Shown here in pieces: positions 29,912 to 41,211 of a stretch of 48,784 nucleotides of DNA. A program made the position numbers and the translations under genes. The notes below the pieces were generated by a model. It did not search any database and was not told the origin of the DNA. It was given only the letters and a program-made list of their open reading frames with translations. Source of the stretch: a virus. The stretch is from positions 1 to 48,784 of IMG/VR virus record IMGVR_UViG_3300031521_000101; one strand, 5' to 3'. The stretch's first letter is position 1. Each line of letters starts with the position of its first letter.

Positions 29912-30000
29912 ACAATAATATAAACCCAAACATGACAATATTGTTATGCTTAACAAAAAAAAAGAAGAAAATTATGAAACATCAACATTAGGTTTTATCA

Positions 30001-30031
30001 TTTGGTAGAGGTTCCCCTTTTATTATTTTTA
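30001..30031 (+). promoter_or_regulatory. Putative Bacteroidota-type promoter
   Basis: TTTG (30001-30004), 19-nt spacer containing a rare GC island (AGAGGTTCCCC), then TATTTTTA (30024-30031), which deviates only in the last base. It lies 65 nt before the ATG at 30097; the intergenic 29912-30096 holds no convincing gene. Confidence 0.5.
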
Positions 30032-30096
30032 AACAGTTAGTAATTAGAAGATTTAAACAAATTAACAAATTAATAAAAAATAAAAATAATAAAAAT

Positions 30097-30417
30097 ATGA
30101 AAACTACATTAAAAATTGATATTAAAAAACTTGCAGAGAATCAATCAAATCTCAGAAATCAAAGAAAAACTATTCACTTTAAAGGTGAAAGAGTAATGGA
30201 AGCATGGCAAGCAGATTATCAACATTCTGAAAACAGACATGAATTAAGAATGTTATATGCTGCATATGGAGTACTAAAAGGTAAAACATTTGAAGAAATT
30301 GAGCCTAAAAATAAACCTGATAAATTACCTTTATCACAATACAAAAATTCAATTGATAAATTAGTTGAAAAATACAAAGTGGTAGAAGAAATTACAGAAG
30401 AGTCATTAGCACTATAA
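30097..30417 (+). CDS. Conserved phage-type hypothetical protein, 106 aa
   Basis: Helical and basic: KTTLKIDIKKLAENQSNLRN, KGERVMEAWQADYQHSENRH, ELRMLYAAYGVLKGKTFEEI. I recognise this arrangement from phage genomes but no function is known. Starts the transcription unit leading to PTH2 and the tRNA. No tag. Confidence 0.8.
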   Translation: MKTTLKIDIKKLAENQSNLRNQRKTIHFKGERVMEAWQADYQHSENRHELRMLYAAYGVLKGKTFEEIEPKNKPDKLPLSQYKNSIDKLVEKYKVVEEITEESLAL

Positions 30418-30424
30418 ATAAAAA

Positions 30425-31006
30425 ATGAAATTATCTCAAAACTTATTTGAACTTTCAGAAGAAGACATTGAAACATCAAAGATGATGTACAATAAAGTGA
30501 TTAAATGCTTAGTTGTACCATATCACACTCAAAAACAACTTGAGTTAGATTATTCTCCAAATGTTTTTATGTTTCCTGAAAATGAAATGACAGAATCACA
30601 AGCAAAAAAATTCATCTCTATGGTTACCAATTCACCTTTACAGGAATTTTTGATCATCACAAAGAGTTCTAATATCATTTATGATATGGTTGATTGCTGT
30701 GTTCGCATTTTAACTGAAAATAATGTGATTATAACTTGTCCAGTTAAGACATTTGCTGCAAATTTATGGGACATATCATTATTGATATTGAACAACAATG
30801 AACACCAAATAACTGAAGCTGAAAAGTCTAAATCTCATATAATGATAGGTGATATTATAACAAAAATAGAAAATGCAACTTCTTTTACAGATGAAGAAGC
30901 TGATGAACTTTCTAAAACTGTTGATATCATTGGTGATGAGATAATTTCATATAGACTAAAAGAAATGCTAAATGAAAAACGTCAAACAGGATTTAGAAAA
31001 AGATAA
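30425..31006 (+). CDS. Hypothetical protein, 193 aa
   Basis: Unrecognised; acidic and helical with an alpha/beta N-terminal half (EFLIITKSSNIIYDMVDCCV, ILTENNVIITCP). The C-terminus EMLNEKRQTGFRKR is basic. The last 35 nt overlap the PTH2 gene start at 30972. Confidence 0.77.
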   Translation: MKLSQNLFELSEEDIETSKMMYNKVIKCLVVPYHTQKQLELDYSPNVFMFPENEMTESQAKKFISMVTNSPLQEFLIITKSSNIIYDMVDCCVRILTENNVIITCPVKTFAANLWDISLLILNNNEHQITEAEKSKSHIMIGDIITKIENATSFTDEEADELSKTVDIIGDEIISYRLKEMLNEKRQTGFRKR

Positions 31007-31292
31007 ATTATTTATACTCATTGATAAAAAACTTGATGTCGCTTATGGAGGAGTCCAAGGTGCTCATGCATCATGTCAATGGTTACTTGATCATAAATAG
31101 GTACAAACCTGGAATAATCAATATTTAATTTTTCTCTCTGTAGAACTTGAAAAATGGATATTTAAGTTAAATCTTAAAAAATTAGATTTCACAGTTTTCT
31201 ATGAACCAGATTTAGATAATAAACCAACTGCAGTAGCAGTACATGGTAATGATTCTCTATTTCGTAATTTAAAACTATGGGGAGCTTTATAA
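30972..31292 (+). CDS. Peptidyl-tRNA hydrolase (PTH2 family) with in-frame amber codon
   Basis: 106 codons plus TAA, with TAG at codon 43 (31098-31100). Before it: KLFILIDKKLDVAYGGVQGA and HASCQWLLDHK, equivalent to PTH2 'VLVVRxDLxMxxGKxAAQxxHA'. After it, in the same frame: TWNNQYLIFLSVELEKWIFK, KLDFTVFYEPDLDNKPTAVAV and NLKLWGAL, equivalent to the PTH2 KVVVxxxxExxLxxL...GLxxxxxxDAGxTxxxxxxxT core. Both halves look conserved and no frameshift is needed, so either the TAG is decoded (tRNA with anticodon CTA 23 nt after the stop) or this is a fresh nonsense mutant. PTH2 frees tRNA from stalled peptidyl-tRNA in the cytoplasm. No tag. Confidence 0.82.
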
Positions 31293-31315: not shown

Positions 31316-31386
31316 GCTTATTTCGTCCAATGGTAGGGCTATAGACTCTAAATCTATCTATGTCGGTTCGAGCCCGATGGTGAGCA
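31316..31386 (+). tRNA. tRNA-Sup(CTA): tRNA with anticodon CTA (amber suppressor type)
   Basis: Full cloverleaf by hand. Acceptor 31316-31322 with 31379-31385 (three G-T pairs), U8 at 31323, D stem GTCC/GGGC with loop AATGGTA, anticodon stem ATAGA/TCTAT with loop CTCTAAA, variable loop of 4, T stem GTCGG/CCGAT with loop TTCGAGC, discriminator A at 31386. Anticodon 31348-31350 = CTA, which reads UAG. No CCA is encoded. The charging amino acid cannot be read from the sequence. Shifting the loop to give TCT (Arg) breaks the stem. Confidence 0.88.
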
Positions 31387-31424
31387 CAAATATATTTTTC
31401 ATGTAATATGTTTATTTTTTTTAG

Positions 31425-31457
31425 AAAAGGATTGAAATTCACTTCAATCCTTTTTTT
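31425..31457 (+). terminator. Terminator after the tRNA
   Basis: 12-bp stem AAAAGGATTGAA (31425-31436) and its complement (31443-31454), 6-nt loop, flanked by T-tracts. Confidence 0.8.
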
Positions 31458-37544: not shown

Positions 37545-37769
37545 ATGAAAATAGGAGATAAAGTTATATTTAGTGATGTTTTTTATGAACATCATAAAGA
37601 TATGACTGAAAATAAAAATAGTATTTTCACAATAAGTTTTGTAAATTATTACAGTGGAGTTGTCAATTTACACGAATTTTCAAATTTTAATTTTGGGTAT
37701 ATTCATTTAGTATTATTATCAGAGAACAGAAAAGAAAAATTGAAAAAATTAAATAATATAAAGATATGA
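37545..37769 (+). CDS. KVGD-family tagged protein, isolated
   Basis: 74 residues. MKIGDKVIFSDVFYEHHKDM, SIFTISFVNYYSGVVNL, LVLLSENRKEKLKKLNNIKI. A lone unit among conserved genes, overlapping the NMNAT start by 4 nt. Confidence 0.79.
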   Translation: MKIGDKVIFSDVFYEHHKDMTENKNSIFTISFVNYYSGVVNLHEFSNFNFGYIHLVLLSENRKEKLKKLNNIKI

Positions 37770-38317
37770 ATAAATTCGGAGTTATTTTAGCAAGGATTCA
37801 ACCAGTACACAATGGTCACATGGCATTAATCAAAAAAGCGTGTGAGGAAAATGAATCAGTAGTAATACTAGTTGGAAGTGCAAATAAAGTTGATTCAAGA
37901 AATCCAATTCCAGTTAGCATTAGAATTGAGATGTTAAAAGATGCATTAAAAGAAGCTGATTTAATTAATAAATGTAAAATTGTACCATTAGATGATTTAA
38001 CTACAGAAAGTGATAATTCTATTGAATGGGGGTTTTATCTTTATACTAAAATAGTAGATCAAATTAAAGATAGCTGCTTCACAATGTATTATTCTGATGG
38101 ATTTGAAATTATTACTAAATGGTTTCCAGGATTCATGTTCAAAAATAATGTATCACTTGTTCTATTAGCAAGAGGCACGGTTGAAGATGGCGTGTCAGCC
38201 ACTGATGTTAGAAAGGCTATATTAAGCAATGATGCAGATTTGAAAAAAATAGTACCAAAATCAGTTTATATCAATAGAAATACTATTAAATCATTCATTG
38301 AAATGAATAAAGAATGA
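37766..38317 (+). CDS. NMN adenylyltransferase (NadM-like)
   Basis: 183 residues, a normal length. The nucleotidyltransferase signature is RIQPVHNGHMALI (10-22), a variant of GRFQPxHxGH with A for the first G and I for F, both catalytic histidines (15, 18) kept. VGSAN at 36-40, SRNPIPVSIRIEML at 44-57, and VSATDVRKAIL (143-153), the ISxTxxR motif. It joins ATP and nicotinamide mononucleotide to give NAD+. In phages such enzymes occur in NAD+-restoring counter-defence; a nicotinamide phosphoribosyltransferase partner is not in the window. No tag. Confidence 0.88.
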   Translation: MNKFGVILARIQPVHNGHMALIKKACEENESVVILVGSANKVDSRNPIPVSIRIEMLKDALKEADLINKCKIVPLDDLTTESDNSIEWGFYLYTKIVDQIKDSCFTMYYSDGFEIITKWFPGFMFKNNVSLVLLARGTVEDGVSATDVRKAILSNDADLKKIVPKSVYINRNTIKSFIEMNKE

Positions 38318-40206: not shown

Positions 40207-41211
40207 ATGAATATAGATAGGAAATTAGCAACAATTCAGGTAATTAAAGACATCTCATCAATAAAAGGGGCAGATAGAATAGAGGTTGTGAAAATTCTTG
40301 GTTGGAAAGTAGTTGTTGAAAAAGATAAATTTAAAATAGGAGAAAAAATAATATATTGTGAAATAGATTCATTACTTCCTATTACTGAAGAATATGAATT
40401 TCTCAGAAAAACATCATATATTAAAACTGAAAGTCAAGAAGGATTCTTACTTAGAAGTATTCGGTTGAGAAAACAAATATCACAAGGTTTAGTATTACCT
40501 ATAAATAATAATTTAATAGAATTACCAATTGGATATGATGTGAGTGAATTTTTGAATATTATAAAATATGAAGTACAAATCCCTGATGAACTTAAAGCTG
40601 ATGTTGTTGGACCTATTCCATCATTCATTTTAAAAACAAATGAAGAAAGAATTCAATCTTTATCAGATGATTTTGATGAATGGAAAAATGAAGATATTAG
40701 TTTCTATGAAACAGAAAAACTTGATGGCAGATCTACTACCATGTATTTACGTAATGACGTATTTGGAGTTTGTGGTAGAAATTGGGAATATAAAAGAAAT
40801 CCAGATAATTTAATGTGGAAATTCGCAATTGAAAATAAAATAGAAGAAAAATTAAGAGCATACGGTAAAAATATTGCAGTACAAGGAGAATTAATAGGCT
40901 CTGGAATTGAAGATAATAGATATAAATTAGATTACAAAACTATTAAATATTTTAGAGTGTTTAATATTGATGAATATAAACTCGAAGATTATGATTCTTT
41001 TGTTCATATAGTAAAGAATGTATTAATTGCTGACACTGTTCCTTTGATTTGTAATGAATATAAATTACCAAATACTATTGATGAATTATTAAAACATGTT
41101 GAAGGTAAATCTGTATTAACAACTACATCAAAACGGGAGGGAAGTGTATTCAAATCACTTGATTCATCAATAAGTTTCAAGGTTATCAACAATGAATATT
41201 TAATAAATTAA
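40207..41211 (+). CDS. RNA ligase, Rnl5/DRB0094 family
   Basis: 334 residues. An N-terminal OB-like domain (LGWKVVVEKDKFKIGEKIIY, residues 31-50) precedes the nucleotidyltransferase core: motif I EKLDGRST with adenylated Lys171, GELIG at 227-231 (motif III region), REGSVFKS at 310-317 (motif IV) and SFKVINNEYL at 323-332 (motif V, K325). N-terminal OB plus C-terminal catalytic domain is the layout of the Deinococcus DRB0094 ligase, which seals nicked RNA duplexes using ATP. In a phage it may mend host-cleaved tRNAs; no polynucleotide kinase is present in the window. No tag. Confidence 0.88.
   Translation: MNIDRKLATIQVIKDISSIKGADRIEVVKILGWKVVVEKDKFKIGEKIIYCEIDSLLPITEEYEFLRKTSYIKTESQEGFLLRSIRLRKQISQGLVLPINNNLIELPIGYDVSEFLNIIKYEVQIPDELKADVVGPIPSFILKTNEERIQSLSDDFDEWKNEDISFYETEKLDGRSTTMYLRNDVFGVCGRNWEYKRNPDNLMWKFAIENKIEEKLRAYGKNIAVQGELIGSGIEDNRYKLDYKTIKYFRVFNIDEYKLEDYDSFVHIVKNVLIADTVPLICNEYKLPNTIDELLKHVEGKSVLTTTSKREGSVFKSLDSSISFKVINNEYLIN

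Follow-up and report, generated by a model that had tools for sequence, protein, structure and literature searches.

A CTA transfer RNA gene and a neighbouring pth2-like gene with an in-frame TAG in a phage contig

Described systems and the present locus

Large phages of genetic code 15, such as the Lak megaphages and crAss-like phages, carry transfer RNAs (tRNAs) with the anticodon CTA and use TAG as a sense codon in many of their late genes. The stretch of 48,784 nucleotides (nt) analysed here (IMG/VR virus record IMGVR_UViG_3300031521_000101, positions 1 to 48,784; hereafter the window) likewise encodes a CTA tRNA, which is adjoined on its upstream side by a gene for a protein resembling PTH2. 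This pth2-like gene also occurs in Lak phages, and in the window it contains an in-frame TAG. In contrast to the code-15 phages, the standard code appears to hold here apart from this one gene. In our view the tRNA is probably an amber suppressor of a small translation cassette and not an agent of genome-wide recoding, and its best-supported target is the adjacent pth2-like gene, which would be expressed only when the suppressor works.

Suppressor tRNAs in the absence of recoding have been described before. In Lak phages a TAA-suppressor tRNA is reported to be universal (51/51) without recoding of TAA (PMC8346664). The standard-code phages XacN1 and Summit carry suppressor tRNAs for which the authors of both reports found no target (PMC5852040, PMC9022506). 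Our locus resembles these two in having a CTA tRNA in a standard-code phage and differs in that a target is proposed; in XacN1 (locus L364), as in RAS14 (L362), the pth2-like core is joined to an upstream domain and holds no TAG, and Summit has only the companion gene described below. In the tRNA arrays of cluster C mycobacteriophages a pth2-like gene is likewise followed by a CTA tRNA. The gene was reported in about 96% of these arrays, and the available part of that paper does not link it to the suppressor tRNA (PMC5966550). The cluster C genes differ from that of the window in beginning with ATG TAG GTG (or GTG TAG GTG), so that a start exists 3' of the TAG.

A regulatory parallel is prfB, the gene for release factor 2 (RF2), which is autoregulated via an in-frame UGA. 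In both cases a stop codon within a gene would sense the decoding of that codon, but RF2 acts through frameshifting and termination, whereas here a tRNA would read the stop. A non-exhaustive literature search found no paper on the pairing of a suppressor tRNA with a pth2-like gene, and a prior mention is possible.

The tRNA and the pth2-like gene

A single tRNA was found in the window by ARAGORN (Table 1), and Rfam model RF00005 matches positions 31316–31386 with 49.2 bits (gathering score 29; E = 1.3e-07) over its full length and with no truncation. The Rfam alignment gives an acceptor stem of 7 base pairs (bp), a D stem of 4 bp and anticodon and T stems of 5 bp each. The anticodon loop CUCUAAA places CUA between U33 and A37, and the 3' CCA is not encoded. 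This canonical cloverleaf with anticodon CUA is that expected of an amber suppressor tRNA, and both programs bear out the original prediction of an intact cloverleaf with U33, A37 and anticodon CTA. The cloverleaf and the loop are constant in close relatives and the stem bases vary, as judged by eye from the pairing: pair 27:43 is changed on both sides, from A-U in the window to G-C in loci L031 and L063, and single stem mismatches occur at 31:39 in L031 and at 5:68 in L063.

The amino acid that the tRNA would carry was sought by comparison with the nearest tRNA body in our set, which is a tRNA-Lys, and no clear assignment was obtained; glutamine is the classical alternative for the residue inserted at UAG. 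The label given by ARAGORN is that of a pyrrolysine tRNA (tRNA-Pyl). The tRNA-Pyl shape has a 6-bp anticodon stem and a short D loop, which the present tRNA does not show, its anticodon stem being of 5 bp and its D loop of 7 nt in the Rfam alignment. The Pfam family PF01409, for a PylS-type synthetase, was absent from five contigs, all of them fragments.

Because the TAG splits the pth2-like gene in two, the gene was overlooked in the original prediction. Eight near relatives in IMG/VR encode proteins that are 91–99% identical, and TAG stands at codon 43 in all eight; the codon that follows is GTA, GTG or GTT, so that silent changes surround a constant TAG. NG86 estimates of the ratio of non-synonymous to synonymous substitution rates (dN/dS) are about 0.07–0.23 on the 3' side of the TAG and 0.11–0.16 on the 5' side, and on these figures both halves of the gene appear to be under purifying selection.

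An AlphaFold model computed with 50 sequences has a mean predicted local distance difference test score (pLDDT) of 91.2 and a predicted template modelling score (pTM) of 0.83. In this model helix 1 comprises residues 23–40 and is followed by a loop to which residue 43 belongs, and the predicted PTH2 fold is assembled from sequence on both sides of the TAG. The strong matches found with Foldseek and VIA-align are all PTH2 structures (PDB entries 3erj, Z = 11.3; 1q7s, Z = 11.0; 1xty, Z = 10.1), and the next, unrelated structure has Z = 3.5. The Pfam family PTH2 (PF01981) matches three of the eight members of our first alignment (A1), and the window protein itself gives no match. A role for the protein, putatively enzymatic, is suggested by its predicted fold. 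We note that two phages of the group with an in-frame stop also encode a second, canonical PTH2 (112–113 bits; contig positions G011:18181 and G013:27688).

It is very improbable, in our estimation, that the TAG is a nonsense mutation in a pseudogene or that the two halves are separate proteins. The modelled loop would tolerate such a split, but the sequence 3' of the TAG is constrained, there is no ATG, GTG or TTG among the 63 codons on that side, and the same TAG is retained in every one of the near relatives. Moreover, in many lineages in which the TAG follows closely upon the start, the first part would be just 2–5 codons long.

Table 1. Features of the cassette, in coordinates of the window
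Feature	Coordinates	Strand	Basis
Short frame, ATG-4 codons-TAG-...RGSP	29974..30033	+	Conserved in clade and L177
Companion protein, family motif ...RHKHIAYCLLRGKTYEQIE...	30097..30417	+	Profile search
193-residue protein, no family, between companion and pth2-like gene	30425..31006	+	
pth2-like gene, 106 codons with TAG read through, predicted PTH2 fold	30972..31292	+	Translation; AlphaFold; PDB structure matches
In-frame TAG, codon 43 of pth2-like gene, predicted loop after helix 1, then purine	31098..31100	+	
Terminator-like hairpin between pth2-like gene and tRNA, includes pth2-like stop codon	31277..31301	+	Fold
tRNA, anticodon CUA (amber suppressor type), no encoded CCA	31316..31387	+	ARAGORN; Rfam RF00005; loop kept in relatives
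Hairpin and T run downstream of tRNA (coordinates approximate)	31424..31457	+	Fold

Genetic code, linkage and in-frame stops

The whole window lies, at 99.998% identity, at the start of a 168 kilobase (kb) IMG/VR contig, G001, and a relative, G004, extends to 256 kb. In both, the window-type CTA tRNA is the only suppressor tRNA and the other two tRNAs are tRNA-Gln. One explanation of such a tRNA is ordinary recoding, with TAG read as glutamine (code 15) and the TAG of the pth2-like gene as one sense codon among others. A CTA tRNA is typical of phages of that kind, and the Lak phages are related through the pth2-like protein. Readthrough junctions for TAG, TGA and TAA were counted in eight long contigs, and in G001, G004, G011, G013 and G014 those at TAG were no commoner than those at TGA or TAA. 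The many long genes with in-frame TAG that mark a code-15 phage were not seen in G001 or G004, both of which are fragments; the original prediction had invoked kinship with TAG-recoding phages, and these scans of the two contigs of the window clade do not support it. Apparent in-frame TAGs in a first count of G009 proved to be mostly neighbouring genes, with an ATG shortly after the stop.

When G001 was set against G004 to look for in-frame stops that are conserved and lie outside other frames, eight TAG candidates were found, of which four are stops in both contigs: that of the pth2-like gene, which is the best, its antisense counterpart, one at 91135 without a known gene, and one in a short frame at 29989. 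This leaves a single convincing case, the others being doubtful or antisense, and the TAG of the pth2-like gene is, as far as these sequences indicate, the one clear in-frame amber of the window clade. A sense TAG would, over such divergence, be expected to exchange with CAA or CAG. As the original prediction had noted, TAG also ends about 23 small genes of the window (23/143 open reading frames of at least 50 residues; 22/135 of at least 60), which again speaks against a sense reading. A point on the other side is that such endings are scarce beyond the window, where TAG and TGA end 5 and 81 frames in the other 119 kb of G001 compared with 22 and 34 in the window (Fisher P = 1e-6). The release-factor family PF00472 is absent from G001 and G004, both incomplete, and Lak phages reportedly encode their own release factor 2. 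On the stop-codon counts and the comparison of G001 with G004, we consider recoding unlikely. Suppression had been predicted to be partial, late or gene-specific; the conserved TAG in the adjacent gene accords best with the last of the three.

When viral contigs were scanned with profiles and proteins, and three named records added, 151 loci with pth2-like genes (119 distinct) were obtained; each profile scan was limited to its top 80 among 158 to 261 relatives. The first same-strand tRNA within 1 kb downstream has the anticodon CTA in 80 of the 119 distinct loci and TCA in four. Any suppressor tRNA within 1 kb downstream was found in 87/119 loci, the next anticodon in 7/119 and none on the other strand. 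Between 15 nt before and 100 nt after the gene end, suppressors make up 54 of 60 tRNAs, whereas in the remainder of these loci they account for 51 of 742 (Fisher P = 2e-47, which is overstated since the loci are related). Loci L067, L079, L085 and L147 have TCA in place of CTA in the tRNA next to the pth2-like gene.

Named phages with a pth2-like core were also inspected (13, then five more). The CTA tRNA lies about 180–250 nt downstream of the core in Cane17, ScoobyDoobyDoo, IkeLoa and Pier, about 2.8–3.7 kb downstream in GAP32, BF and XbC2, and about 450 nt upstream in ME3; in Lak-A2 and Lak-B7 a TTA tRNA lies 627–734 nt upstream of the gene. A scan of bacterial genomes gave three loci, one of them on a contig already in the set. 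Phage tRNAs can act in counter-defence, and it might be supposed that the tRNA decodes no UAG in vivo and serves instead as a decoy against tRNA-cutting defences of the host or as a regulatory RNA. The tRNA bodies do differ widely from locus to locus, as a decoy might. The anticodon CUA and its association with an in-frame TAG are not accounted for in this way, and the rarer anticodons at this place (TCA, TTA) also read stops; a decoy or regulatory RNA seems to us improbable.

In-frame stops and a tree were studied in 132 loci. An in-frame TAG is present in 39 of the pth2-like genes (hereafter gated), in 19 ahead of the core, in 15 at the position seen in the window (position A) and in five elsewhere. 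In twenty loci the core and the first stop upstream of it enclose no canonical start, and this stop is TAG in 19 of them and TAA in Lak-A2. An ATG stands 1–5 codons before 16 of the 19 pre-core TAGs (for example in LR756500, LR756501, LR756504, LR756511, ME3, BF, GAP32 and XbC2), while in L092, L101 and L281 the frame enters from further upstream. The arrangement ATG-2 codons-TAG precedes the core in the cultured phages GAP32 (a jumbo phage), BF, CBB, XbC2, Kaldavass and SNUABM_47, and purine-rich stretches that could bind ribosomes lie 5' of several of these ATGs. Start-stop frames in general often arise by chance within a single genome, and it is therefore on the homology of the core that the argument depends. 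Two mycobacteriophages are ambiguous, having a GTG 3' of the TAG. An AUU start directly 3' of the TAG, suggested by several gates that read TAG-ATT, was ruled out as a general explanation, since others read AAT, AAA, GTA or GAG.

A purine directly follows the in-frame TAG in 39 of 41 genes (the two mycobacteriophages included and L141 excluded), compared with 168/288 among the TAG terminators in ten contigs (P = 5e-7) and a frequency of 0.60 at first codon bases (P = 3e-7), values that are overstated in that the rows are related. A purine after UAG favours suppression. In a tree of the 132 cores with stops masked, gated and ungated states are separated by 19 changes, of which at least eight are forced by starred branches (94 columns, with many forks open). 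In the starred clade that unites L177, L187 and the window group, TAG is present in all five rows at two different places, that of L177 and L187 standing in F-TAG-EPD, and the sequences suggest that gating is retained there although its place shifts. At L094:5103 an in-frame TGA occupies a conserved tryptophan of the core, as though TGA were read as Trp. No gene is annotated over the core in Serratia phage BF (L365) or SNUABM_47, and in GAP32 (L366) the annotated start falls within it.

Proposed role and other parts of the cassette

Charging of the tRNA, readthrough of the UAG, the function of the product and the timing of its synthesis are, we infer, connected as follows. Without the suppressor, ribosomes would stop at codon 43 and release a useless 42-residue fragment; with it, an amino acid would be inserted and the 106-residue PTH2-like protein made, the level of which would be a readout of suppressor activity. 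The protein would then capture a side product of suppression, which is most likely peptidyl-tRNA from ribosomes that are stalled or slowed at UAG or have passed overrun stops, and the phage would thus make the rescue enzyme only on need. To our mind it is a nearly even question whether this extends to standard-code large phages in general, in which a widespread cassette (companion, PTH2-like protein and stop-suppressor tRNA) would act as a translation sensor, with the pth2-like gene repeatedly placed under control of the stop that its tRNA reads and the stop kept as a movable regulatory part.

Several observations weigh against the suppressor reading, in addition to the relatedness of the rows noted above. 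We take the catalytic residue of PTH2 to be a lysine, acting together with an aspartate; in the sequence alignment this presumed lysine is apparently replaced and an acidic residue, Glu, is retained, and the protein might therefore have a binding or otherwise altered role. The TAG is present in G013 and G012 (400 of 410 kb read), and ARAGORN finds no CTA tRNA in either, even with introns allowed. LR756504 is gated and no suppressor tRNA was seen in its positions 375000–405000. Summit, chosen for its suppressor tRNA with no reported target, was predicted to have an adjacent pth2-like gene, and no pth2-like frame was found in it. Locus L141 has TAA and not TAG at position A, and TAA is not read by CUA under standard pairing. 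Lastly, in 90 of the 132 loci, most of them with a nearby CTA tRNA, the pth2-like gene is free of in-frame stops, and gating therefore cannot be the sole use of the tRNA.

This last point leads to a different proposal, namely that the suppressor serves mainly other mRNAs, above all host stops (for takeover or timing), that the PTH2-like protein mends the resulting damage and that the TAG is a switch added by some lineages. Both the majority of loci, in which the cassette lacks the TAG, and the rarity of TAG at the ends of long genes (0/93 in G001 and 4/163 in G004 among those of at least 150 residues) agree with it. The repeated gating of this one gene is something that it does not by itself explain, and we hold it to be possible but on balance doubtful. 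If the adjacent gene is the target, as we prefer, a phage tRNA would read a stop codon used as a regulatory switch, gene finders would overlook or truncate the gene, as appears to be so in BF, SNUABM_47 and GAP32, and the pairing may explain suppressor tRNAs in phages of ordinary code. A shared neighbour with an in-frame TAG is in any case a concrete and testable target, and one available in cultured phages.

Relatives of the small, conserved companion protein lie upstream of the pth2-like gene, ending between 1500 nt before and 200 nt after the core, in 86/132 loci in a profile search run with the pth2 frames cut out, and reverse-strand controls gave no match. In Summit the gene 6 nt before the suppressor tRNA is a companion homologue (E = 9e-10 with a profile of 32 loci without Summit, then 1.5e-13). 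No Pfam family scored over the cut-off for the companion. In the relative L058/G004 the companion end directly adjoins the pth2-like gene. The hairpin upstream of the tRNA shows a compensatory change in L058 and L063; in the window clade, as a speculation, a ribosome that reads through might open it, so that transcription would reach the tRNA and create positive feedback.

Membership of the short RGSP frame in the cassette is uncertain, and the element may represent another gated frame or, alternatively, a structured RNA. Frames of this type (in the window and at L015:9404) consist of an ATG followed after 4 to 5 codons by a stop, and in Lak-A2 the stop is TAA and the neighbouring suppressor tRNA has TTA. 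A DNA pattern scan picked up 14 stretches, with a fit confined to those from the known clade, and an Rfam E-value search around the element returned only tRNAs and chance matches.

Elsewhere in the window, the product of positions 4569–7028 is homologous to the major vault protein of eukaryotes (Pfam MVP_shoulder, E = 9e-28) and is about 50% identical to proteins in phage records LR756500 (462 kb) and LR756501/503 (735 kb); no report of phage vaults was found in a single literature search. Positions 40207–41211 encode an RNA ligase with a PHA02142 OB domain and positions 37766–38317 a cytidylyltransferase-like protein.
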